Source of the DNA: a virus | DNA length: 21,327 nucleotides | Reading direction: 5' to 3' (one strand) | Virus record (IMG/VR): IMGVR_UViG_3300044950_000506 | Span: 1 to 21,327 of that record | Shown here: piece by piece, positions 3,439 through 15,670 of the stretch | Position numbering within the stretch: position 1 is the stretch's first letter | How the letters are laid out: every line of letters begins with the position of its first letter | Position numbers and translations under genes: made by a program | The notes under the pieces: generated by a model | What the model was told of the DNA's origin: nothing | Seen by the model: only the letters and a program-made list of their open reading frames with translations | The model's database searches: none

Positions 3439-3454
3439 TAATGTTGTATATTTG
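3424..3454 (+). promoter_or_regulatory. Rightward early promoter, ATTG-N19-TATATTTG
   Basis: TATATTTG at 3447-3454 matches TAnnTTTG and ATTG at 3424-3427 matches the -33 element with a 19-base spacer. The predicted start site leaves a short untranslated leader of roughly 15-18 bases before the ATG at 3475. It should drive the 3475-5554 gene block. Confidence 0.65.
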
Positions 3455-5559: not shown

Positions 5560-5595
5560 TAAATTTGTAGGTTAAATAAATAATACTTACATTTG
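5560..5595 (+). promoter_or_regulatory. Promoter of leader RNA 1, TTTG-N20-TACATTTG
   Basis: TACATTTG (5588-5595) fits TAnnTTTG and TTTG (5564-5567) fits the -33 element with a 20-base spacer. An overlapping TAAATTTG (5560-5567) is a possible second -7. A 7-base inverted repeat, TAGGTTA (5568-5574) and TAACCTA (5596-5602), brackets the -7 element and could be an operator. Confidence 0.6.
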
Positions 5596-5598
5596 TAA

Positions 5599-5695
5599 CC
5601 TAATCACCGCCAAGATGAAAAATAATTCAAAACATAACCCTCTATTTTGTGAGCTTTACTTGGCGGTGAGCTTACTTAATAGGGGGTTTCTTTTT
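5599..5695 (+). ncRNA. Leader RNA 1: interleaved stems, U-tailed hairpin
   Basis: TCACCGCCAAG (5604-5614) is perfectly complementary, over 11 bases, to CTTGGCGGTGA (5659-5669). The latter lies in the terminal part of a long hairpin: AACCCTCTATT (5636-5646) pairs with AATAGGGGGTT (5678-5688) through 11 pairs with one G-U. Inside it GTGAGCT (5649-5655) pairs with AGCTTAC (5669-5675). U-rich TTTCTTTTT follows. The first pairing crosses the second, so it is a pseudoknot-type contact or a competing structure. The gene ATG is 19 bases after the stem. All pairs were read from the sequence; function is inferred. Confidence 0.6.
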
Positions 5696-5707
5696 AAAAA
5701 CAATCTT

Positions 5708-5980
5708 ATGAAAATTACATTAACAGAAAAAACAGAAACAACAAGGGAAATTGAGTTAACACTTCCTTATTACTCTAAAGCACCTTTAGACTTATTTTAT
5801 TACAAAGTATTAAGCGAAAACTACATGGTAAAATTAACTCATTGCTCAAACGATTATTGTATTGAAACTACAAAGTACACAATAACATCAGCATTTTATG
5901 ATGATAGAATTGTTATTACAGAAGAAGAATTTAATAATAAATTTAATGAATTACTAACCTTAATTAACTCAGCGAAATAA
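5708..5980 (+). CDS. Hypothetical protein, 90 aa, first gene after leader 1
   Basis: I chose ATG at 5708, preceded by an A-rich stretch, instead of the in-frame ATG at 5615, because the latter lies within the structured leader and would add a 31-residue extension. The product starts MKITLTEKTETTREIELTLPYYSK, an N-terminal beta hairpin, has a centre with two cysteines (THCSNDYCIETT) and ends in an acidic helix (EEEFNNKFNELLTLINSAK). I do not recognise a family. It joins the ERF gene by a TAATG overlap and is therefore likely co-expressed with recombination functions. Confidence 0.6.
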   Translation: MKITLTEKTETTREIELTLPYYSKAPLDLFYYKVLSENYMVKLTHCSNDYCIETTKYTITSAFYDDRIVITEEEFNNKFNELLTLINSAK

Positions 5981-6510
5981 TGAAAGACTTAGTAAAAATT
6001 CAAACAGAATTAAAAGTTCCTAAAGGTAACTTTAACAGCTTTGGTAAATACAAATACAGAAGTTGTGAAGATATTTTAGAAGCTGTAAAACCAATCCTAA
6101 ACAAGTATAACGCTACATTTAGTTTAACTGATGAAGTTATATTAGTTGGCACTAAACTATTTGTTAAAGCAACTGCATCTATTCATATTGGACAAGATCA
6201 TAATTGGACTTGTGGCTTTGCAGAATTAGCAGAACATAAAGGAATGTCACCAGAACAAGCAACCGGAACTGCATCAAGCTATGCTAGAAAATATGCTTTA
6301 AATGGTTTATTTTTAATTGATGAAACAGAAGCGGATGCGGATAGTCAAAAACCTGCACCAGTTAAACCAACTTTAAACGCTCAACAATTTGAAGCTATAA
6401 TTAACACTATTACAAGTGGTAATAAAGACAAGGTAATTGAAGCGTTACCAAAATATACAATCTCAAAAGAATTTCAAACCGCTATTGATTTAGCATTAAA
6501 AAATAATTAA
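5980..6510 (+). CDS. erf: ERF-family single-strand annealing protein
   Basis: The 176-residue product has the two ERF superfamily hallmarks: FGKYKYRSCEDILEAVKP (residues 21-38) and EQATGTASSYARKYALNGLF (92-111), followed by IDETEADADSQ. ERF proteins bind single-stranded DNA and promote annealing and strand exchange, serving genome circularisation, repair and recombination-dependent replication. The C-terminal part after residue 125 is a Pro/Ala/Lys linker and a small helical tail, as usual for the family. The SSB-like gene is upstream and a Gp157-like gene is 2 bases downstream, a common phage recombination order. Confidence 0.9.
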   Translation: MKDLVKIQTELKVPKGNFNSFGKYKYRSCEDILEAVKPILNKYNATFSLTDEVILVGTKLFVKATASIHIGQDHNWTCGFAELAEHKGMSPEQATGTASSYARKYALNGLFLIDETEADADSQKPAPVKPTLNAQQFEAIINTITSGNKDKVIEALPKYTISKEFQTAIDLALKNN

Positions 6511-6512
6511 TT

Positions 6513-7007
6513 ATGAAAGTAGCATTATACCAAATCGAACAGGAATATTTAAACATTGTACAATCTATAATAGATGCAGGTGGCGAAATAACAGAGGAGC
6601 AGGAAACTGCCCTCTCTATTTCTAAAGAACAATTACAAAATAAAGGCGTTTGTTATGGCTTTATTGTAAAAGAATTAGAGGGCAATATAGATCTAATTGA
6701 TTTAGAAATAAAGCGATTACAGGCATTAAAAAAACCTTTAGTTAATAGTATCGATAGACTTAAAAATAACCTCACACAAGCCATGCAAATGTTTGATGTA
6801 ACGGAATTAAAAACACCGTTGTTAAAGATTAACTTTAGAAAATCAGAATCTATTGAAGTTACTGATATTGACTTGTTAGATGCAGATTTTGTTAAAACAA
6901 CTATAACTAAGGCAGCCGATAAAATAGCGATTAAAGATGCTATTAAGGCAGAGATACCAGTTAGAGGTGCTGTGTTAATTACTAACTATAACCTACAAAT
7001 TAAGTAA
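6513..7007 (+). CDS. Gp157-like phage protein
   Basis: The 164-residue product fits the siphovirus Gp157 family: an N-terminal helix starting ALYQIEQEYLNIVQSI, an acidic IT.EQE.AL segment, a long coiled-coil region around residues 48-90 (GFIVKELEGNIDLIDLEIKRL, KPLVNSIDRLKNNLTQAM), then KTPLLKINFRKSESIEV (about 101-117), and a Lys/Ile-rich C-terminus (DKIAIKDAIKAEIPVRGAVL). The family occurs beside ERF or other annealing proteins; in streptococcal phages it is linked to phage resistance, but its biochemical role is unclear. The gene ends in a TAATG overlap with a 42-aa gene. Confidence 0.75.
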   Translation: MKVALYQIEQEYLNIVQSIIDAGGEITEEQETALSISKEQLQNKGVCYGFIVKELEGNIDLIDLEIKRLQALKKPLVNSIDRLKNNLTQAMQMFDVTELKTPLLKINFRKSESIEVTDIDLLDADFVKTTITKAADKIAIKDAIKAEIPVRGAVLITNYNLQIK

Positions 7008-7135
7008 TGGAAAAACCAATCCTACCAAACATGATCGTGCTAAATGATAGCACGGTCATTTATAAAGGCAAAAAACTAAAGCCAATATGTTTAACCATAT
7101 CTCTTATAAGGGATAGTAAAAAAGTGAAGGAATGA
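7007..7135 (+). CDS. Mini-protein, 42 aa
   Basis: ATG at 7007 overlaps the preceding stop by one base, and its stop overlaps the next ATG by 4 bases (ATGA). The product (MEKPILPNMIVLNDSTVIYK to DSKKVKE) is basic, with a short beta hairpin (MIVLNDSTVIYKGKKLKP) and one cysteine. Coupling on both sides supports it as a real gene. The DNA for residues 9-18 forms a strong 12-pair hairpin in the message. Function unknown. Confidence 0.5.
   Translation: MEKPILPNMIVLNDSTVIYKGKKLKPICLTISLIRDSKKVKE
7031..7059 (+). promoter_or_regulatory. 12-pair RNA hairpin inside the 42-aa gene
   Basis: ATGATCGTGCTA (7031-7042) pairs with TAGCACGGTCAT (7048-7059) around the loop AATGA, with a single G-U pair. No U-tract follows, so it is not an ordinary terminator. 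It may be an RNA processing site, a translation pause or a protein target, or only a chance result of the encoded hairpin. Confidence 0.35.
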
Positions 7136-7872
7136 AGATTATACAATTATATGGAGGAGGCACAAACTCATTAGCTGTTTTAATAAACATGGTTAAAAAT
7201 CAGATAATACCAGATGAAATTTTATTTAGTGATACGGGCGGAGAACAACCTAAAACTTATAAAATTATTGAAGAGGTAAATATTTGGCTATCTGAAAAGA
7301 ATTTTCCAACTATCAAAACATTAAAGTATAAAACAAAAAATGGTGAAGAACTTACACTTGAACAGGATTGTTTAAATAATAATACAGTACCTCCGATTGC
7401 TTTTGGTTGGAAAACGTGTAGCCAAAAATTTAAAATTTCACCCGTAGAAAAATATCTTAAAGCTAAATATCCAAACGAAAAACTACAAATGTGGGTTGGG
7501 TTTGATGCTGGAGAAGAAAGAAGAGTTAAGGCTAATCCAAATGAAAATTTTGAAAACTATTTTCCTTTAATAGAATGGGGATGGAATAGGGAAAAATGTA
7601 TTGAAATAATTTTAAAATCTGGTTTAAGTATGCCCGGTAAAAGTTCTTGTTTTTTTTGCCCAAATATGAAGAAACATGAAATACTTGCTTTAGATGATGA
7701 ATTGAAAGAAAGAGCAATGGCAATGGAGAAAAACGCTACAAAGTTAATGGAGATAAAAGGGTTAGGCAGAAATAAAACATGGACTTCGTTAATACAAGCA
7801 GATAGATCACAATTAAAAATAGATTGGGATATTGAAGATTGGCATACTCCATCCTGCGAGTGCATTGATTAA
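7132..7872 (+). CDS. PAPS-reductase-like PP-loop ATPase
   Basis: The 246-residue protein has an N-terminal PP-loop of unusual form, YGGGTNS (7-13, canonical SGGKDS-like), followed by FSDTGGEQPKTY (32-43), KTCSQKFKISPVEKYL (94-109), GFDAGEERR (123-131) and FPLIEWGWNREKCIE (144-158). These are the successive motifs of the phosphoadenosine-phosphosulfate reductase family. A cysteine cluster, SSCFFCPNMKKHEI (171-184), and a terminal CEC could hold a metal or Fe-S centre. Such phage enzymes adenylate a substrate; sulfur transfer or nucleic-acid base modification are the usual proposals. The gene is coupled by ATGA upstream. The substrate is unknown, and it is not closely like the second PP-loop protein (10650-11978). 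Confidence 0.8.
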   Translation: MKIIQLYGGGTNSLAVLINMVKNQIIPDEILFSDTGGEQPKTYKIIEEVNIWLSEKNFPTIKTLKYKTKNGEELTLEQDCLNNNTVPPIAFGWKTCSQKFKISPVEKYLKAKYPNEKLQMWVGFDAGEERRVKANPNENFENYFPLIEWGWNREKCIEIILKSGLSMPGKSSCFFCPNMKKHEILALDDELKERAMAMEKNATKLMEIKGLGRNKTWTSLIQADRSQLKIDWDIEDWHTPSCECID

Positions 7873-7890
7873 ACAAGAAATTTAAAACCT

Positions 7891-8184
7891 ATGACCACAG
7901 ACGAAATAAACAAACTAATAGCTAAGGAATATCAAAGCCTTAGCGATTTAGCTATTCAAAAGAATAACAGTTACGCAGGATCAATTTTTAATCCTGATTG
8001 GATTATTAAGCCATCAATGGAACTAACTAAAAAAGATATGATTGAATTTGGAATAGCAGCCAGAGCAAACGATAAAATTAATCGTATCAAAAGCGCAGGT
8101 TTAAAAGGCTTTGACGAAGATAATCTAAAAGACTTAATAGGCTATCTTATACTGTTTCGTATCGCTCAGGGTCTAAAAGAATAG
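7891..8184 (+). CDS. DUF1599 / nucleotide-modification-associated-like protein
   Basis: The 97-residue product is helical, with KNNSYAGSIF (residues 24-33), EFGIAARANDKINRIKS (50-66) and DEDNLKDLIGYLILFRI (74-90). This order (K-N-x-x-Y, GI..R..DK..R, acidic helix with DL.GY..L) is that of DUF1599, also called nucleotide modification associated domain 1. The family resembles all-alpha nucleotide pyrophosphatases and is proposed to act on modified nucleotides. It is the last gene of the leader 1 operon and follows the PP-loop enzyme after an 18-base gap, which hints at joint nucleotide chemistry. Assignment rests on motif order, not on an alignment. Confidence 0.6.
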   Translation: MTTDEINKLIAKEYQSLSDLAIQKNNSYAGSIFNPDWIIKPSMELTKKDMIEFGIAARANDKINRIKSAGLKGFDEDNLKDLIGYLILFRIAQGLKE

Positions 8185-8195
8185 TTGATTATTAT

Positions 8196-8218
8196 CCACA
8201 ATAACCCTATATTTGTGG
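8196..8218. terminator. Weak hairpin between convergent genes
   Basis: CCACAA (8196-8201) pairs with TTGTGG (8213-8218) around an 11-base loop, just after the plus-strand stop at 8184 and over the stop of the minus-strand gene. No T-run follows, so termination is a weak guess based mainly on position. Confidence 0.3.
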
Positions 8219-8560
8219 CTCATTATCAACATCTGGAATAGGCAGACTTTCATAATATTCATTTAACTTTGAATAAATTACCTCTGGTCTGCCGGGTGAA
8301 TAAACCAAATCCCCATTCTCAAAGACTATCTCGGTGTAATATTTCTTATTAGTTTTACCTTTAGGAATAAATACCTTTGGGTTTAATTGCGTAATTGTAT
8401 TTCGAGATAAACAAAAGTAGCCTATTGTAGTTTCATAGTCATCTAATAAACCTTCATTTAAAAGCCTTATTTTATCTAACTCGTCTATTTCCTCATCCGT
8501 ATTAAAAGCTGAGTTTATAGGGTGAATTATCGATATTGAGAACCATTGTAGACTATCCAT
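8207..8560 (-). CDS. Hypothetical protein, 117 aa
   Basis: I do not recognise a family. The product begins MDSLQWFSISIIHPINSAF, has a conspicuous acidic helix (TDEEIDELDKIRLLNEGLLDDY), a beta-like region with CLSRNTITQLNPKVFIPKG and EIVFENGDLVYSPG, and an acidic Pro-rich tail. There is no membrane segment or metal site. It follows the phosphoesterase gene by one base on the same strand, so they share an operon and probably a function. It looks like a phage-specific partner or regulator of the phosphoesterase, but this is only inferred from linkage. Confidence 0.6.
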   Translation of the reverse strand: MDSLQWFSISIIHPINSAFNTDEEIDELDKIRLLNEGLLDDYETTIGYFCLSRNTITQLNPKVFIPKGKTNKKYYTEIVFENGDLVYSPGRPEVIYSKLNEYYESLPIPDVDNEPQI

Positions 8561-8561
8561 G

Positions 8562-9545
8562 TTAATAGATTTTATTGTTAACTATTTTTAAGTTCTTAAT
8601 AAAATATTCATCACTTTTAAGGTTTAAAGTAACGTGGCTAAAACCTAAGTTCCATTTGTTTATGGGAGCGAACATTGGATTCATATCACATAAGCAGCCC
8701 TGAGAGTGAACAGATATTAATCTATTGTTCATTGTTGGCTCAGAATGTGAACTTGTCCTATGATAGTGACCAACTAAAGTGTCTTCCATTGTTTTAGTAA
8801 AAGTTGCTCTGGCAGGATTAACACCACCCATTCCAAACAATTCATGACCATGTAAAACAGTTAATTTACCGATTGATATTGGGCGTTTATCTTTTACCGT
8901 TTCAATCTTTAACTCACCTAATTTTAAAAGTATTTCTAATTGAAAATCGGCAACATCAAATATCTCAGGTGCTTTAACATATAACCATTTTTCCCAACGT
9001 TCGTCATGGTTACCATGCTTATAAACTATCTTAGCGTTTGGAAAATTATCTCTTAGACTTTGTAAAAATTGCCTTACTGCAATAAATTCATCATTAATAG
9101 AACGGTGTCTAAAATCCTTTTCGTGCCGGCTTATGTTTGCAAAGTCAATAAGATCTCCATTTATTAGGATGCAGGTTACTTTATTGTCTAAACCATATTG
9201 TAATGCCGTTTCGATAGCTTTATTGTTTTGGTATGGAAAATGTAAATCACTAATAACTAAAGTTGAGGTTTGTTTTATTTCGTATGTACTAAAATCATTC
9301 GAGTAACTTTCTGGCAAATTAAAAGGATTAAGCGGCTTTGGTGCTACATAAATATTTTTATCCTTCATTAGTTTTCTATTTTTTTGACCAGCTTGCCCTA
9401 AATAACTTCTAATAAGACTTCTTACTGAATCAACGTTTGTGAACAGTTTGGAATTTTCTTTGTAGATTTTCTTAGCAAGAGTAAGGTTTGGAGTATTAGG
9501 GAACTTCTTTAAATACTTTTTTACAATTTCACCGTTTAAAGCCAT
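8562..9545 (-). CDS. Calcineurin-like metallophosphoesterase with N-terminal HTH-like domain
   Basis: All five metallophosphoesterase motifs are present in the 327-residue protein: SDLHFP (D100, H102), NGDLIDF (G130, D131), KHGNHDER (177-183), LHGHE (231-235) and GHYHRT (259-264), which bind two metal ions. The first 60 residues are a separate basic helical domain (LTLAKKIYKENSKLF, SVRSLIRSYLGQ) that resembles a helix-turn-helix, as seen in related Bacteroidota phage proteins. DNA-directed phosphatase or nuclease activity is plausible; Mre11/SbcD-like roles are less likely because no ATPase partner is nearby. The gene is transcribed against the flanking replication operons from a region shared with the RusA promoter. 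Confidence 0.85.
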   Translation of the reverse strand: MALNGEIVKKYLKKFPNTPNLTLAKKIYKENSKLFTNVDSVRSLIRSYLGQAGQKNRKLMKDKNIYVAPKPLNPFNLPESYSNDFSTYEIKQTSTLVISDLHFPYQNNKAIETALQYGLDNKVTCILINGDLIDFANISRHEKDFRHRSINDEFIAVRQFLQSLRDNFPNAKIVYKHGNHDERWEKWLYVKAPEIFDVADFQLEILLKLGELKIETVKDKRPISIGKLTVLHGHELFGMGGVNPARATFTKTMEDTLVGHYHRTSSHSEPTMNNRLISVHSQGCLCDMNPMFAPINKWNLGFSHVTLNLKSDEYFIKNLKIVNNKIY

Positions 9546-9554
9546 AAGTTATAA

Positions 9555-9588
9555 TTTGTGTAAATATAACATTTTTTGTTTACTTTTA
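9555..9588 (+). promoter_or_regulatory. Possible rusA promoter, TTTG-N22-TACTTTTA
   Basis: TACTTTTA (9581-9588) is a one-base-off match to TAnnTTTG and stands only 5 bases from the ATG at 9593, so the message would be nearly leaderless. TTTG at 9555-9558 is slightly far. The minus-strand gene start lies just beyond, so this 47-base gap is a divergent promoter region. Confidence 0.35.
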
Positions 9589-9592
9589 CATT

Positions 9593-9916
9593 ATGCATAA
9601 AATAAATATAAAACCATTGTCAGTTAACCAAGCATGGCAAGGGAAAAGATTTAAGACAAATTTATATAAACAATATGAGCATGATGTTTTACTACTCCTG
9701 CCAAAGATTAAGATAGTTGAGCCACCTTACAGGCTTAATTTAATAGTAGGATTTAGCAATAAAGCAAGTGATATTGATAACATTTTAAAGCCATTTTTAG
9801 ATATTTTACAAAAGAAATATGGCATAAATGATAAGCATATTGAAGTTTTACATATTGAAAAACAGATAGTTAAGAAAAATAATGAATTTATTTCATTTGA
9901 GATAGTGTCAATTTAG
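9593..9916 (+). CDS. rusA: RusA-family Holliday junction resolvase
   Basis: The 107-residue product has the standard RusA layout: an N-terminal PLSVNQAWQGKRFKT (residues 8-22), two beta strands (YRLNLIVGF), and the catalytic region ASDIDNILKPFLDILQKKYG (58-77) with D60, D62 and D70 as metal ligands and K66 as the conserved basic residue, then GINDKHIEVLHIEK (77-90). RusA dimers cut four-way DNA junctions symmetrically, resolving recombination and branched replication intermediates before packaging. Length matches the family (about 100-130 aa). It stands alone between divergent and leader promoters, the next gene being behind leader RNA 2. Confidence 0.9.
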   Translation: MHKINIKPLSVNQAWQGKRFKTNLYKQYEHDVLLLLPKIKIVEPPYRLNLIVGFSNKASDIDNILKPFLDILQKKYGINDKHIEVLHIEKQIVKKNNEFISFEIVSI

Positions 9917-9927
9917 AATTAAATTTA

Positions 9928-9935
9928 TACTTTTG
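9928..9935 (+). promoter_or_regulatory. Promoter of leader RNA 2, -7 element TACTTTTG
   Basis: TACTTTTG matches TAnnTTTG exactly, 12 bases after the rusA stop. No good -33 TTTG is found at the usual distance, so the promoter may be weak or activator-dependent. Its predicted start site is about 9940, immediately before the first hairpin. Confidence 0.45.
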
Positions 9936-9939
9936 TCAA

Positions 9940-10026
9940 AGTTAAGGTTTGTGCGAACCATCTAAATTAACTAAGATATTAACCCTATTCCCTGAGAGCG
10001 CACACTCGAGGGGTGTAGGGTTTTTT
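9940..10026 (+). ncRNA. Leader RNA 2: kissing hairpins, U-tailed
   Basis: GGTT (9946-9949) and AACC (9956-9959) close a loop TGTGCG (9950-9955). A second, long hairpin pairs AACCCTA (9981-9987) with TAGGGTT (10016-10022), then CCC (9990-9992) with GGG (10011-10013) and GAG (9994-9996) with CTC (10005-10007). Its loop AGCGCACA contains CGCACA (9999-10004), the exact complement of the first loop over 6 bases. Six T close it and the ATG at 10040 follows 17 bases after the stem. The two loops can kiss. Confidence 0.6.
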
Positions 10027-10039
10027 AATTTATAAAACT

Positions 10040-10477
10040 ATGGAAAGAATATACCACAATTATAAAAAATGGGAGGATTTTAATTGTGGATTTTATAGCA
10101 CAACAAATACTAAAAATAAAAATTATTTAATTTCAAAAGTTATTGAATTATTTACAGACTCAAATTTAACTGAAATTTATATGAGAAAAGTTATTAATGA
10201 ATGGGTTTATTCTTGTGAGCATAATTTAACAAATATGAGTTTAAATAAAATAGCATATATTGGTCAAGCCGCTTGTTGTATTTATGCTAAAGTTCCTTTT
10301 TATATTACAATGAACGCTTGGAATAAAATAGATATAATAAATAGAAATATAGCAGATAAAATAGCTTATAAAATAATCAAAGAATGGGAACAAAATCAAA
10401 AGTTAAAAAATACATTAAAGATTGGGAAAGAAAAGGATATAAATATGGAATACCAGATGAAGCTCCTATTGAGTTAG
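10040..10477 (+). CDS. Uncharacterised protein of the IbrA-type cluster, 145 aa
   Basis: The product starts MERIYHNYKKWEDFNCGFY and contains EWVYSCEHNLTN (residues 54-65) and NKIAYIGQAACCIYAKVPFYITMNAWNKI (69-97). I recall this order (WED..GFY; EW..S.E.NLTN; IGQAAC; AW) from short proteins next to PAPS-reductase-like DUF3440 genes in phages; their function is unknown. It is helical and soluble. The final 32 residues share DNA, in another frame, with the start of the next gene. It is the first gene after leader RNA 2 and the start of a strikingly A+T-rich block (about 17% G+C in bases 10081-10140, hand count). Confidence 0.6.
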   Translation: MERIYHNYKKWEDFNCGFYSTTNTKNKNYLISKVIELFTDSNLTEIYMRKVINEWVYSCEHNLTNMSLNKIAYIGQAACCIYAKVPFYITMNAWNKIDIINRNIADKIAYKIIKEWEQNQKLKNTLKIGKEKDINMEYQMKLLLS

Positions 10478-10653
10478 AAAAATTAAACATAGTTCCATCT
10501 TATAGAAAAATATGTATTGCATTAATGAAAAACGAAAATAATTTAGAAACACTTGGATTTTCAAGAAAAAAAACATTAGTGTATAGTGAATTAAAAAGAA
10601 TAGAAATAGAACAAAGATATATTAAAAACAAACAATTAAAATTAAATTTATGA
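10384..10653 (+). CDS. Stand-alone homologue of the IbrA C-terminal tail, 89 aa
   Basis: The product contains YIKDWERKGYKYGIPDEAP (10-28) and PSYRKICIALMKNENNLETLGFS (38-60). The latter lines up with the tail of the following IbrA-like protein (PNWKAVCITIMKNDFGLTYM, 392-411), so both appear to carry the same small module. The 94-base out-of-frame overlap with the 145-aa gene is real rather than a wrong start, because the conserved IPDEAP region is itself inside the overlap. The function is unknown; a recruitment or regulatory domain for the PP-loop enzyme is a reasonable guess. It ends 4 bases into the next gene (ATGA-type overlap). Confidence 0.65.
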   Translation: MGTKSKVKKYIKDWERKGYKYGIPDEAPIELEKLNIVPSYRKICIALMKNENNLETLGFSRKKTLVYSELKRIEIEQRYIKNKQLKLNL

Positions 10654-11978
10654 ATGTATTAGAAGCTACAAACAAAAGATTAGAAATAATTTTTAGAGAT
10701 TTTGAAAACGTTTTAGTTGCATTTTCTTGCGGTAAAGATAGCGGTGTAATGTTATCATTAACATATAAATACGCAAAAGAAAATAATCTTTTACATAAGC
10801 TATCATTTTATTATGAAGATTATGAAGCTGGTTATAGACACACAGACGAATATGCTGATAGGGTTTTTTCTGAATTAAATGATGTTAAGGCTAGGTATTG
10901 GCTATGCTTACCAATATCTGCCGCTTGTTCAGTTTCAATGTATGAACCACGTTGGATACCTTGGGATAAAGATAAAAAAGATATTTGGGTAAGAGATATG
11001 CCAAACTATGATTATGTAATAAATGAAGATAATTGCCCTTATGAATTTATAAAAGGCACAAAGGGTTTTGATGCGCGTATTCAATTTAGTACTTGGTATG
11101 GAGATACCTTTGGTAAAACTGCGGTTTTAATAGGTATTAGAGCAGAAGAAAGTTTAACAAGGCGTGGAATATTTACATCGCAGCATAGAAAACATATGCA
11201 CAAAGGATTAAATTATTCTAAAATAGTAGATAAAAATACTATAAATTTTTACCCTATTTACGATTGGCAAACTGAAGATATATGGAGATGTAATAGTAAA
11301 TTTGAATTTGATTATAATAAGATATACGATTTATATTATCAAGCTGGTTTAACAATAGACCAAATGAGGGTAGCTAGTCCATTCCATTTATCTGGTCAGG
11401 AAAATTTAAAATTATATAAAGTAATAGATCCAAACAATTGGGGTAAAATGGTTGGTAGAGTTAACGGGTGTAATTTTGGCGGAATATATGGAGGCACTTC
11501 TGCAATGGGTTGGAAAAAAATAACTAAACCTAATCACTTTACATGGAAACAATATGCTGAATTTTTACTAGACACTTTGCCAGAAGATACAAAAAAAAAA
11601 TTTAATTACCATTTAAAAAGATTTGCAGATGTTTGGAAAAATAAAGGATACGGTAGAAATCCAAGAGTAATAAAGCAAATTGAAAATGCAGGAGTTGAAA
11701 TAGAGAGAACTGGAAATATAAGTAAACTATGTAAGAAAAAAGATATATATGAAATTATAAAAATAAAAGGGGATTGGGTAGATGAAATAAATATAGAAAA
11801 TTCAACACCTTTTAGGCATTGCCCAAATTGGAAGGCTGTATGTATAACAATAATGAAAAATGATTTTGGATTAACTTATATGAGTTGTGGTAGAACCCAA
11901 GACAAAAATATATTAAAACAAAAAAGCATGACTAAGTTTAAAAAATTACAAGATTTAAAAAAAATAAACAAAAAATAA
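10650..11978 (+). CDS. ibrA-like: IbrA-like PAPS-reductase family protein, DUF3440
   Basis: The 442-residue product has a PP-loop (FSCGKDSGVML, 25-35), the PAPS-reductase motif LIGIRAEESLTRRG (160-173), YPIYDWQTEDIWR (201-213) and the DUF3440-type region QMRVASPFHLSGQENL through VNGCNFGGIYGGTSAMGW (238-288). A Lys-rich C-terminal domain ends with PNWKAVCITIMKND (392-405). This is the arrangement of IbrA, which in Escherichia coli is encoded with the ParB-like IbrB and affects expression of immunoglobulin-binding genes. The biochemical reaction is not established for the family; ATP-dependent sulfur or nucleotide chemistry is expected from the fold. The IbrB homologue follows 4 bases downstream. 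The first conserved Gly of SGGKDS is Cys here. Confidence 0.85.
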   Translation: MNVLEATNKRLEIIFRDFENVLVAFSCGKDSGVMLSLTYKYAKENNLLHKLSFYYEDYEAGYRHTDEYADRVFSELNDVKARYWLCLPISAACSVSMYEPRWIPWDKDKKDIWVRDMPNYDYVINEDNCPYEFIKGTKGFDARIQFSTWYGDTFGKTAVLIGIRAEESLTRRGIFTSQHRKHMHKGLNYSKIVDKNTINFYPIYDWQTEDIWRCNSKFEFDYNKIYDLYYQAGLTIDQMRVASPFHLSGQENLKLYKVIDPNNWGKMVGRVNGCNFGGIYGGTSAMGWKKITKPNHFTWKQYAEFLLDTLPEDTKKKFNYHLKRFADVWKNKGYGRNPRVIKQIENAGVEIERTGNISKLCKKKDIYEIIKIKGDWVDEINIENSTPFRHCPNWKAVCITIMKNDFGLTYMSCGRTQDKNILKQKSMTKFKKLQDLKKINKK

Positions 11979-11982
11979 TAAT

Positions 11983-12519
11983 ATGGAAACAGAAACAAAT
12001 CAATTTAAAAGTCCCGTTTATAATGTATTAAGAATACACGTTGATAAAATTAGGGCAAACGCTTACAATCCAAATGCAGTAGCTCCACCAGAAATGAAAT
12101 TACTTGAAATGTCTATTTGGGAAGATGGCTATACAATGCCAGTTGTAGCTTATTATATTCCTGAAGATGATGTTTATGAGATTGTCGATGGTTATCATAG
12201 ATTTACAACTCTTAAAACGAGTAAAAGAATTTTTGAAAGAGAGCAGGGTTATTTGCCATTAGTAGTTATTGAAAAAGATTTAAGTAATCGTATGGCATCT
12301 ACTATTAGACATAATAGAGCTAGGGGGTCACATTCAATTGATTTAATGAGCCATATAGTTGCTGAATTAGTTGATAGTGGAATGAGTGATAATTGGATAT
12401 TAAGACATATAGGAATGGATAAAGATGAATTATTGAGATTAAAACAAGTAACTGGATTAGCTGCTTTATTTAAAGATCAAGAGTTTTCTAAAGCATGGGA
12501 GGATAAATCAAATGATTAA
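11983..12519 (+). CDS. ibrB-like: IbrB-like ParB-domain protein
   Basis: The 178-residue product matches IbrB closely in motif order: RANAYNPNAVAPPEMKLL (24-41), SIWEDGYTMPVVA (44-56), the ParB-type EIVDGYHR (66-73), the basic NRMASTIRHNRARGSHSIDLM (102-122), GMSDNWILRHIGMDKDELLRL (133-153) and KQVTGLAALF (154-163). ParB-N domains of this group bind DNA or act as nucleases or CTPases; with IbrA it forms a two-gene system found in phages and prophages. It starts 4 bases after the IbrA-like stop and overlaps the next gene by 8 bases. Likely partner and DNA-targeting subunit of the PP-loop enzyme (inference). Confidence 0.85.
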   Translation: METETNQFKSPVYNVLRIHVDKIRANAYNPNAVAPPEMKLLEMSIWEDGYTMPVVAYYIPEDDVYEIVDGYHRFTTLKTSKRIFEREQGYLPLVVIEKDLSNRMASTIRHNRARGSHSIDLMSHIVAELVDSGMSDNWILRHIGMDKDELLRLKQVTGLAALFKDQEFSKAWEDKSND

Positions 12520-13126
12520 TTTACCAACTAAAGATAAAAACGGAAAAAGTTTTTTAACCTATTCTCAAATAGCATTATTTTTAAAAAACAAAAAAGAATA
12601 TACAAAACAGTATATTTTAAAAGAACCTTTTTTTCAAAACAAATACATAAAGTTTGGTTTAAAAGTTGGTAATGCAATAGAAAAAAACGATTATTCTTTA
12701 TTTACAAAAGACGAAAAAAACATATTAGAGACTGTTAAAAGATTAGATTTATTTGAAAAAAAGTGTTTTTTAGATTTTGATGATTTTTATATTTCTGGAA
12801 GAATAGATAGTTGTACTTTTGATTTAACCGAAATTATAGATTATAAAACCGGTGGAGACAATAAAGAAATACAATACACTTTACCAGAGTATGTTCAATT
12901 ACCATATTACGCTTTATCTATAAGGCAGCAAGATCAAATACACGTTAATTCCGCAAGTGTTATATTTATAAAAAGAACTAAAGAATTAAAAATAGCAAAT
13001 GAACCTCCATTAACAATCCCAATAGACATAAGCGAACAAAGGTTAAAGTGTGTTTATTATGACACAATAAAAATTGCAAAAGAAATTGAATTATTTTATG
13101 AAAATTATTTGCAAAATCAAAAGTAA
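12512..13126 (+). CDS. PD-(D/E)XK nuclease, Cas4/RecB-like
   Basis: The 204-residue product contains the nuclease core YISGRIDSCTFDLTEIIDYKTGG (93-115): the GRID aspartate is a metal ligand, and the E-x-x-D-Y-K string supplies the acidic residue and the catalytic lysine. A QLPYYAL motif (133-139) is the usual Q-x-x-x-Y helper. An N-terminal SYSQ-like segment (TYSQIALFL) also occurs in RecB/Cas4-type phage exonucleases. It probably degrades or processes DNA ends during recombination, or serves the IbrAB-like system it overlaps. No Fe-S cysteine set is seen, unlike true Cas4. It is Lys/Phe/Ile-rich and shares the low G+C of the island. Confidence 0.75.
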   Translation: MINLPTKDKNGKSFLTYSQIALFLKNKKEYTKQYILKEPFFQNKYIKFGLKVGNAIEKNDYSLFTKDEKNILETVKRLDLFEKKCFLDFDDFYISGRIDSCTFDLTEIIDYKTGGDNKEIQYTLPEYVQLPYYALSIRQQDQIHVNSASVIFIKRTKELKIANEPPLTIPIDISEQRLKCVYYDTIKIAKEIELFYENYLQNQK

Positions 13127-13139
13127 TTGTTTATATTTG
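13108..13139 (+). promoter_or_regulatory. Promoter of leader RNA 3, TTTG-N20-TATATTTG
   Basis: TATATTTG (13132-13139) fits TAnnTTTG, and TTTG (13108-13111) fits the -33 element with a 20-base spacer, the same geometry as at leader 1. The -33 element lies within the last codons of the nuclease gene. Predicted start about 13143. Confidence 0.65.
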
Positions 13140-13142
13140 CAA

Positions 13143-13224
13143 TGTTGTCTGGAAGCAACCAATAAAATATTACTCAAAAAGCTCAATTCTGCGTGTCTTC
13201 CAGCACAAAGTTTTGGGCTTTTTA
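13143..13224 (+). ncRNA. Leader RNA 3: kissing hairpins, U-tailed
   Basis: GTTG (13144-13147) and CAAC (13156-13159) close the loop TCTGGAAG. The distal hairpin pairs AAAAAGCTCAA (13176-13186) with TTGGGCTTTTT (13213-13223) by 11 pairs with one G-U. Inside it GTG (13193-13195) and CAC (13204-13206) close a loop TCTTCCAG. CTGGAAG (13149-13155) and CTTCCAG (13197-13203) are perfectly complementary over 7 bases, loop to loop. The stem's 3' arm ends in the U-run and the ATG at 13236 follows after 12 bases. Confidence 0.6.
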
Positions 13225-13235
13225 CATTTTAAAAC

Positions 13236-13910
13236 ATGGCAGAAAATAAAAAATCATTTGTTCTTTATTGTGATTTAATTCACACTATCGAAAAGATGCC
13301 AAACGACAAAGCTGGATTGTTATTTAAACACTTACTTAGGTATGTTAATGATCAAAATCCAATCATTGATGACCTGTTAATTGAAATTGCTTTTGAGCCA
13401 ATTAAGCGACAACTTAAAAGAGATTTAGAAAGTTGGGAGGAAAGTTTAATTAAAAAAGGTGATGGTGGAGCGTTAGGAAATTTAAAAAGATGGCATTTGG
13501 ATTTATATAACAAAGTGATTTCTAAAGAGTTAAGTTTGCAAAAGGCTGTTGAACAATCAAAGTATCGCATAGCATCGCATAGCGATAAAACCGTATCGCA
13601 CCCGATCGCATCTATCGCTGTAACTGTAACTGATACTGTAACTGATACTGTAAATGTAAATGTAAAAAATAATATAAATGAATTTTTTAAATCTTTATTA
13701 AACGGATCTGATTTAGAAAGAATAGCAATGAATAATAAATTAACAATAATTGAAGCTAAAGAATATGTTGAATTATTTAAACCTAAAGCTGAGTTAACTT
13801 ATCAAACTTATGCTAAATTTGTAAGCCATTTTAAAAATTGGTTAGTTTTAAATAAACAAAAAACAGGGCAAGATAGACACGATTTTTTAATGAACGCTGG
13901 TAAAATGTAA
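13236..13910 (+). CDS. Phage replication initiator-like protein (DUF6291/DnaD-like)
   Basis: The 224-residue product has an N-terminal helical domain starting SFVLYCDLIHTIEKMPNDKAGLLFKHLLRYVND (7-39), the pattern of DUF6291-type phage proteins. A low-complexity linker follows (about 108-145: SHSDKTVSHPIAS, then TVTDTVTDTVNVNV), then a helical C-terminal domain ending KFVSHFKNWLVLNK and QDRHDFLMNAGKM. Such two-domain proteins with a Val/Thr/Asp/Asn repeat linker stand before phage primase-helicases and are taken as origin-binding initiators or helicase loaders. The primase-helicase follows 2 bases downstream. The linker DNA carries helically phased repeats, as in the lambda O gene. Initiator role is inferred. 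Confidence 0.65.
   Translation: MAENKKSFVLYCDLIHTIEKMPNDKAGLLFKHLLRYVNDQNPIIDDLLIEIAFEPIKRQLKRDLESWEESLIKKGDGGALGNLKRWHLDLYNKVISKELSLQKAVEQSKYRIASHSDKTVSHPIASIAVTVTDTVTDTVNVNVKNNINEFFKSLLNGSDLERIAMNNKLTIIEAKEYVELFKPKAELTYQTYAKFVSHFKNWLVLNKQKTGQDRHDFLMNAGKM
13564..13706. repeat. Iteron-like repeats and A+T-rich stretch, candidate replication origin
   Basis: ATCGCA occurs at 13564, 13574, 13595 and 13605, with the variant ATCGCT at 13614 and an inverted AGCGAT at 13581: spacings of 10, 21, 10 and 9 bases, one or two helical turns. Next come two exact tandem copies of ACTGATACTGTA (13629-13652) and two of AATGTA (13653-13664), then about 40 bases of nearly pure A+T. Iterons followed by A+T-rich DNA inside an initiator gene recall lambdoid origins. 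Confidence 0.5.
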
Positions 13911-13912
13911 CT

Positions 13913-15670
13913 ATGGAAGATTATAGCAAATACGGAATTAAAACAAGTAATAAAACTAAAGGCGAGTTTGCAACAACTTGTCCTAAATGTTCTCATGACC
14001 GTAAAAAGAAAACAGACCCTTGTTTAAAAGTTAATTTAGATAAAGGTTGTTGGAAGTGTTGGAACTGTAATTGGGCTGGTTATCTTAAAGAAGAGAAGAT
14101 TGAAACTAAAAACTATATTAAACCAGTTTGGAAAAATCAAACAAATTTAAGTACAAATGTTGTTAAGTGGTTTGAATCAAGGGGACTAAACCAAAATACA
14201 TTAACAGAGTTTAGAATTACCGAGGGTTTAGAATGGATGCCACAGGATAAAAAAGAGGTTAACTGCATTCAATTTAACTATTTTAGTAAGCTAAATGAAT
14301 ATACAAATACCAAATTTAGAACTGGCAGCAAAGGATTTAAACTTATTAAAGATGCTAAATTAACATTTTACAACCTTGATAAAATAGATTTTACTAAAAG
14401 AATTTACATAGTTGAAGGCGAGATAGATTGCATGACACTATCGCAATGCTCATTTAAAAACGTTTTAAGCGTTCCTAATGGCGCAAGTGTTGGTAATAAT
14501 AGAATGGAATATTTTGATGACATTAGCGAGGATATATTTAACTGCCCTGAAGTTTACCTTTGTTTAGATAATGATATTGCCGGTCGTTCTTTACGTGAAG
14601 ATTTAGCAGAGCGAATAGGTAAAGAAAAATGTAAATATGTTGAGTTTAGAGATTGTAAAGATGCTAATGATTGTTTAAATAAATATGATTTACAGTCTGT
14701 TATTGTTTCAATTAGCGAGGCTAAACCGTTTCCATTAGAGGGCGTTTACACCATTAGCGATATGTCAGATGAAATTGATGACCTCTACTATAATGGATTG
14801 GATAAAGGCGTTAGTCTAAAAATTGATGGGTTTAATCTAAATATTGTTAAAGGTTACTTATCAATTATTACAGGAATACCATCACACGGTAAATCTGAAT
14901 GGGTTGATAATATTTGTGTTCACCTTAGAAGGCATCACAACTGGTCGGGTGCTTTTTACTCCCCTGAGAATAAACCAACAAGACTTCATTTTAGTAAGAT
15001 AGCACGAAAGATAGTAGGTAAAAATTGGATGGGTAACGATAAAATGTCAATACTTGATGTTAACTCTGTTAAAAAATATTTAGATAAAAAGATTTGGTTT
15101 ATTAAACCTGAAAAAGATTTTACATTAAAATCAATTTTAGATCATGCTAAAAGAACTAAGTTAATGCACGGTTTAGATTATTTTGTTATTGATGCTTGGA
15201 ATAAATTAGAGCATAAAAATGATGGAAGTACAAATGCAATAGGTAAAGATTTAGACGAGTTAGCCTCTTTTTGTGAACTTAATAATGTTCATTGTTTTTT
15301 AGTTGCTCACCCAACTAAGATGAAAAAAACAAATGGTAAAGATTTTGATGTACCTACCCTTTATGATATAAATGGGTCATCTAATTTTTATAATAAAGCA
15401 GATAACGGTATTTGTGTTTATAGAGATAAAGAGGCAAATTTAGCATATATTCACATACAAAAAGTAAAGTTTAGCCATTGGGGCGAAGAGGGAAGTTGCT
15501 CTTATGCTTATGAACCAAACAGTACAAGATACTACAAAGGAATGCCAGACTTTACAAATTGGATAAGTGCCGATCAAGTGCAAACTAAACTTCAACAAAA
15601 TGATAACTTTCTAACAAGCCCACTTGATATAATAACAAACAACGGTAAAAACGAAATAGACCCATTTTAG
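13913..15670 (+). CDS. Primase-helicase, T7 gp4-like
   Basis: Domains in the 585-residue protein: a zinc-binding primase ribbon CPKC (23-26) and CWNC (49-52); a TOPRIM fold with YIVEGEIDCMT (165-175) and the DND-type LCLDNDIAGRSL (217-228); and a RecA-like DnaB-type helicase with Walker A GIPSHGKS (321-328), YSPENK (349-354), Walker B YFVIDAWN (423-430), VAHPTKMKK (464-472) and DINGSSNFYNKADNG (485-499). It should unwind the fork and lay primers for lagging-strand synthesis. No DNA polymerase is encoded in the window, so the host's or one elsewhere is used. It follows the initiator-like gene by 2 bases. Confidence 0.92.
   Translation: MEDYSKYGIKTSNKTKGEFATTCPKCSHDRKKKTDPCLKVNLDKGCWKCWNCNWAGYLKEEKIETKNYIKPVWKNQTNLSTNVVKWFESRGLNQNTLTEFRITEGLEWMPQDKKEVNCIQFNYFSKLNEYTNTKFRTGSKGFKLIKDAKLTFYNLDKIDFTKRIYIVEGEIDCMTLSQCSFKNVLSVPNGASVGNNRMEYFDDISEDIFNCPEVYLCLDNDIAGRSLREDLAERIGKEKCKYVEFRDCKDANDCLNKYDLQSVIVSISEAKPFPLEGVYTISDMSDEIDDLYYNGLDKGVSLKIDGFNLNIVKGYLSIITGIPSHGKSEWVDNICVHLRRHHNWSGAFYSPENKPTRLHFSKIARKIVGKNWMGNDKMSILDVNSVKKYLDKKIWFIKPEKDFTLKSILDHAKRTKLMHGLDYFVIDAWNKLEHKNDGSTNAIGKDLDELASFCELNNVHCFLVAHPTKMKKTNGKDFDVPTLYDINGSSNFYNKADNGICVYRDKEANLAYIHIQKVKFSHWGEEGSCSYAYEPNSTRYYKGMPDFTNWISADQVQTKLQQNDNFLTSPLDIITNNGKNEIDPF

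Follow-up and report, generated by a model that had tools for sequence, protein, structure and literature searches.

In phage P4 CI RNA immunity, as in the plasmid control systems ColE1 RNAI/RNAII and CopA/CopT, the loops of short RNAs recognise a complementary segment, and the loop words used for recognition diversify into distinct specificities. Promoters of the Bacteroidota have a known form, with TTG at -33 and TAnnTTTG at -7. In the lambdoid phage HK022, putL and putR are cis-acting, promoter-proximal elements of about 70 nt that form two stem-loops in early transcripts; they occur in more than one copy per genome, and the copies have a common sequence and bind the zinc-binding domain of the polymerase beta' subunit (PMC9378689).

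Here we describe leaders found in virus record IMGVR_UViG_3300044950_000506 (21,327 bases; hereafter the window) and in its relatives. Each carries a short segment near the 5' end of the RNA (the 5' word), usually in a small hairpin (P1), that is complementary to the apical loop of a downstream hairpin (P2). Like put RNA, these leaders are promoter-proximal on phage transcripts and have two stem-loops; unlike put RNA, their sequence is free (37 different words) while the kissing contact is constant, and P2 resembles a terminator. Like leader attenuators, they place a promoter-proximal intrinsic terminator before a coding region, but their terminator arm has no other pairing that is conserved, and the partner is the terminator's loop. 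They also resemble P4 CI RNA, ColE1 and CopA/CopT, with the difference that the leader partners lie in the same transcript, on one strand.

Results

Three leaders in the window

The first-pass annotation of the window had proposed three leaders of one layout, a TAnnTTTG box followed by a 5' word, a linker, P2 and an ATG. We read all three base by base, from the box through the 5' word, A/T-rich linker, P2 and U-tract to the start codon, and found this layout at each place (Table 1). The proposed matches of 11, 6 and 7 bases at sites 1, 2 and 3 were exact, and the leaders do head a recombination module (ERF), an IbrA/ParB island and a replication module, respectively. Because there is no 5' hairpin at site 1, this leader is a plain pseudoknot and not a kissing loop; at sites 2 and 3 the word lies in the P1 loop. 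It had also been claimed that cross-talk between the leaders is avoided, and this is only roughly true. The exception is TTTGTGC at 9948-9954 of site 2, which fits GCACAAA at 13203-13209 of site 3, a segment that falls partly in the inner stem of P2.

Table 1. Leader features and the genes behind them in the window
Feature	Positions	Strand	Details	Basis
Leader 1 promoter	5565-5595	+	TTG 5565-5567, 20 bases, TACATTTG 5588-5595	sequence
Leader 1 5' word	5604-5614	+	TCACCGCCAAG, no enclosing hairpin	
Leader 1 P2	5636-5688	+	terminator-like hairpin AACCCTCTATT ... AATAGGGGGTT	fold
Leader 1 partner word	5659-5669	+	CTTGGCGGTGA in P2 loop, 11/11 complementary	
Leader 1 U-tract	5687-5695	+	TTTCTTTTT	sequence
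Leader 1 first gene	5708-5980	+	90 aa, ATG 5708	
ERF recombinase	5980-6510		next after the 90-aa gene of leader 1	
Leader 2 -7 box	9928-9935	+	TACTTTTG	sequence
Leader 2 P1	9940-9972	+	outer stem AGTTAA/TTAACT, inner stem GGTT/AACC, loop TGTGCG 9950-9955	type A alignment A3
Leader 2 P2	9981-10026	+	hairpin 9981-10022, loop word CGCACA 9999-10004, T-run 10021-10026	
Leader 2 module	10040-13126	+	first ATG 10040	
Leader 3 promoter	13109-13139	+	TTG 13109-13111, 20 bases, TATATTTG 13132-13139	sequence
Leader 3 P1	13144-13159	+	stem GTTG/CAAC, loop TCTGGAAG; 5' word CTGGAAG 13149-13155	
Leader 3 P2	13176-13223	+	loop word CTTCCAG 13197-13203, T-run	
Leader 3 replication module	13236-15670	+	DUF6291 protein, Toprim/DnaB-type primase-helicase; ATG 13236	

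The first gene behind leader 1 had no Pfam match. The module behind leader 2 encodes a 145-aa protein, a DUF3440 fragment, an IbrA-like protein (PAPS reductase/DUF3440), a ParB-like protein (IbrB) and a PD-(D/E)XK nuclease. The small protein encoded at 10384-10653 matches the C-terminal end of DUF3440 and lies upstream of the full IbrA-like PAPS-reductase/DUF3440 gene (10650-11978), as if DUF3440 had been partly duplicated in this module. Two further TATATTTG boxes stand near start codons, at window positions 3447 and 15819, without a kissing leader; thus, not every phage promoter carries one.

The pairing is kept while the words change

We asked whether the complementarity could be chance in A/T-rich intergenic DNA. 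The 11-base match of site 1 has a chance probability of about 5e-5, and the matches of 6 and 7 bases at sites 2 and 3 are not decisive when taken alone, a weakness that speaks for chance. Relatives were pulled from IMG/VR using three window proteins. Each candidate had a TAnnTTTG box followed by a terminator-like hairpin, and we matched its first 32 nt against the loop of that hairpin; a contact was scored at -12 kcal/mol or better, and mismatched partners served as the control. Contacts were found in 21 of 47 candidates in the first set, against 1.0 with mismatched partners, and in 39 of 136 box-plus-hairpin candidates from a larger set of 163 related and reference sequences, against 2.9. Four permuted control boxes, run with the first set, gave 0 to 3 contacts. 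The 5' words started mostly 8-17 nt past the box, and a stem (score of at least 10) enclosed the word in 32 of 38 cases compared with 8.0 in shuffles. When a promoter was not required, terminator hairpins with upstream complementarity hardly stood out, since hairpins are called too permissively in A/T-rich DNA.

Two subfamilies could be aligned. Most type A leaders were collected with their common pattern, AGTTAA...TTAACTAACT.ATT, which is the only reason that their outer stem is invariant. In this alignment the contact was paired in 66 of 66 cells, with both sides changed in 4 of the 6 pairs; covariation was also seen in the inner P1 stem (3 of 4 pairs) and at the P2 apex (2 of 4). The alignment scored 0.565 for covariation, versus 0.174 for shuffles and at most 0.136 for slid controls. 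Type C, the second subfamily, came to light in cultured phages, namely FCV-1 and FCOV-S1 (Flavobacterium columnare) and the Baltic Flavobacterium phages lillamy, morran, mumin and snusmum. Here the contact at one position reads GTAGAGAG/CTCTCTAC, GTGAGACG/CGTCTCAC, GTGAGAAG/CTTCTCAC or GTGGAACG/CGTTCCAC, and the stem around it, GTAATGAA...CATT, is constant while the contact words differ. Across 20 type C sequences, 159 of 160 contact cells paired and both sides had changed in 5 of 8 pairs (score 0.323, versus 0.165 for shuffles, in which kinship was not removed, and at most 0.111 for slid controls, in which it was). Among orthologous leaders, 11 of 12 contact-loop columns varied, versus 3 of 18 columns in the P1 stem and closing bases. 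Since the 5' word in most leaders forms the loop of P1, a hairpin that itself covaries, the contact amounts to a kissing loop or a pseudoknot. The P2 apex of type C (alignment A4) also keeps GGA(G/A)(G/A)GC ... GC(C/T)GA, a pattern resembling G-A pairs beside a short G-C stem.

We also scanned IMG/VR blindly, with only the P1 hairpin of type C and six free loop bases. This gave 24 distinct matches, already-known cultured phages among them, and in 23 of the 24 a complement of the match's own loop (7-8 bases) was located 37-44 nt downstream; the single failure had neither a TAnnTTTG box nor P2. A looser scan with the outer stem of type A gave 33 matches. Thirteen of these had the TATATTTG box, an inner hairpin bearing G/C and a T-run, and all 13 had the contact; the others were background. 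The controls, the covariation and this blind prediction all exclude chance complementarity, to which we assign next to no probability, and the structure, that is, the leader fold with its contact, is near certain. The idea that this is a selected RNA structure whose pairing is kept while its sequence can vary freely was thus borne out by the controls and aligned relatives: when relatives were examined for broken or one-sided loops, complementarity was kept and both sides changed together.

Promoter, terminator form and start codon

In 19 of 36 leaders a TTG preceded the box by 17-23 nt, compared with 3.6 in shuffles, and a predicted -33/-7 promoter is supported by these motifs. P2 has the form of an intrinsic terminator, a stable stem directly followed by a U-tract, though not in every leader. 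The T-run directly follows the G-rich arm in 19 of 19 type A leaders; the terminator form is present in 17 of 20 type C leaders, and the U-tract is degenerate in the other three (L170, L171 and L192), suggesting that termination is not universal. In most leaders a start codon on the same strand follows P2 by 9-23 nt, and in a second group by 42-49 nt. Type C leaders of the second group have one extra small hairpin between P2 and the ATG. This hairpin occurs at L193, L188, L178, L187, L164 and other type C loci in the form CGGT-ATCTTAAA-ACCG or with a changed stem, for example AGGT/ACCT or CCGT/ACGG; the genes behind it encode a family of proteins of about 70 aa that start with MAKFELKF or similar.

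We found no conserved competing partner for the 5' arm of P2 upstream of it: a fraction of 0.17 of arm bases paired there, versus 0.26 in shuffles. A classical antiterminator was rejected on this ground. A leader peptide was rejected as a general mechanism, since an ATG frame runs through P2 in a minority of leaders and mostly does not share the reading frame of the next gene. Leader 1 does have its hairpin inside an open frame (5615-5980, ATG 5615) that is in frame with the gene starting at 5708, and L052, L046 and L039 likewise have frames that run through P2.

Range and mobility

In total, IMG/VR contigs and cultured phages yielded 66 distinct leaders. Cultured carriers include Flavobacterium phages FCL-2 (37475) and 11b (33621), Croceibacter phage P2559S (33901), FCV-1 and FCOV-S1, and Baltic carriers are lillamy, sniff, tooticki, morran, mumin and snusmum; snusmum9-1 has three leaders, before a helicase, an endonuclease and a small gene. 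All hosts known to date belong to the Flavobacteriaceae. We detected no good contact in any candidate leader of Flavobacterium phages 6H and pippi8-1, Riemerella phage RAP44, Nonlabens phage P12024S, the first 50 kb of Cellulophaga phage phiST or Bacteroides phage B124-14. Weak box-plus-hairpin matches in leader-free Bacteroidota phages were judged to be chance. Among genome contigs scanned with an IbrA-like protein, three non-flavobacterial loci had no convincing leaders.

The leaders move as cassettes. FCL-2 and FCV-1 have common sequence up to about the promoter and then different leaders and genes; the gene behind leader 2 is common to the window and L018/L019 (82% DNA identity), whereas the leader directly before it differs; and one type C leader precedes several unrelated small genes. 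Phages from the same hosts have different words.

A BLAST search of phage records with a type A leader returned nothing, though the fold occurs in phage records, and no Rfam 15 covariance model gave an above-threshold match over any leader tested. Ordinary sequence and covariance searches miss the family because its constant part is a pseudoknot. The DUF805b cis-regulatory RNA (RF02914), a short Bacteroidota element that the leaders do not match, co-occurs in the same phages: it was matched at L161 12781-12815 in lillamy9-1 (52 bits), about 20 nt before a ParB-like gene, and therefore occurs in a virulent phage.

Discussion

We suggest that the element may be a promoter-proximal attenuator in which the 5' end of the RNA itself holds the terminator loop; we give this proposed regulatory action about an even chance of being correct. 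Transcription would begin at the Bacteroidota-type promoter (-33 TTG, -7 TAnnTTTG), and the first 10-40 nt form P1, or occasionally a bare segment, bearing a word of 6-13 nt. P2, terminator-like and with an apical loop that carries the exact complement of the 5' word, follows about 25 nt later. The 5' word can pair with the P2 loop once this has emerged from the polymerase, ahead of closure of the lower P2 stem at the U-tract, and this contact would alter how often the polymerase passes P2 into a replication, recombination or accessory module. Our guess at the direction is that early contact would strain P2 or delay its closure, so that read-through would be favoured. As no competing antiterminator pairing is conserved, any effect of the contact would have to come from topology or from action in trans. 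Two points make an attenuator our preference: a terminator so near the promoter would, if unregulated, keep the module silent, and type A has retained the U-tract together with the contact.

A finished short RNA of about 80-110 nt could, in addition, act in trans: by pairing with the 5' word of a newly made transcript it could bring termination back, which would give feedback. Such feedback is our proposed explanation for why words differ within one phage and between related phages. We read the words as diversifying into separate addresses, and their diversity is most easily explained if mispairing, either in trans or with another leader, does harm or serves as the signal. The fuller form of this idea is a self-addressed switch, in which the terminated short RNA acts in trans on copies of its own leader through diversifying loop words, and the diversification would resemble that of incompatibility groups; we offer it tentatively, as an unlikely reading at present. 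A partner on the opposite strand, as in ColE1 or CopA, is not what we found, since both partners lie on one strand of one leader.

The same structure could instead govern mRNA stability or the start of translation and leave termination unaffected, with P2 and the contact shielding the 5' end or setting the landing zone of the ribosome. This would fit the nearly fixed distance of start codons past P2, the three type C members that keep the contact without a good U-tract and the second conserved small hairpin before the ATG in some type C leaders; a perfect terminator in all 19 type A leaders, however, would be hard to understand if the polymerase never stopped there, and we regard this explanation as improbable, at roughly one chance in five. 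Somewhat less probable still are autonomous small RNAs between genes, each consisting of a promoter, a folded RNA of 80-110 nt and a terminator, in which the contact would be a mere tertiary fold. The unit is indeed complete from promoter to terminator and moves before unrelated genes, but most copies are tightly spaced to an ATG on the same strand, and free change of the loop word is odd if a small RNA has a fixed target.

We consider it quite improbable, more so than either of these, that the leader antiterminates as HK022 put RNA does, riding folded on a polymerase that then ignores later terminators. The position behind phage promoters, the size and the two-hairpin plan all agree with put RNA (PMC9378689); the subfamilies, on the other hand, have no common sequence, which a polymerase-binding RNA would be expected to need, and descriptions of put RNA include neither a U-tract nor a kissing contact, whereas P2 ends in a U-tract. 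Taken together, the evidence does not fully separate an attenuator from a stability or translation element, a small RNA or a put-like site.

A literature search, confined to sources outside subscription, found no published description of the leader element, and in the paper on the Baltic Flavobacterium phages, promoters, terminators and RNA elements go unmentioned. We have filed the leaders as a new RNA family outside the named families, working most like a leader attenuator. Little is known of how phages of this phylum control their genes, and the leaders make up a large RNA family there that had not been described; their presence in cultured phage-host pairs makes them directly testable. If the attenuator is correct, it would be a new control principle, and the words would provide a ready set of mutually distinct RNA switches. 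If the self-addressed switch were also true, each gene module and phage lineage would have a private address for feedback or superinfection.
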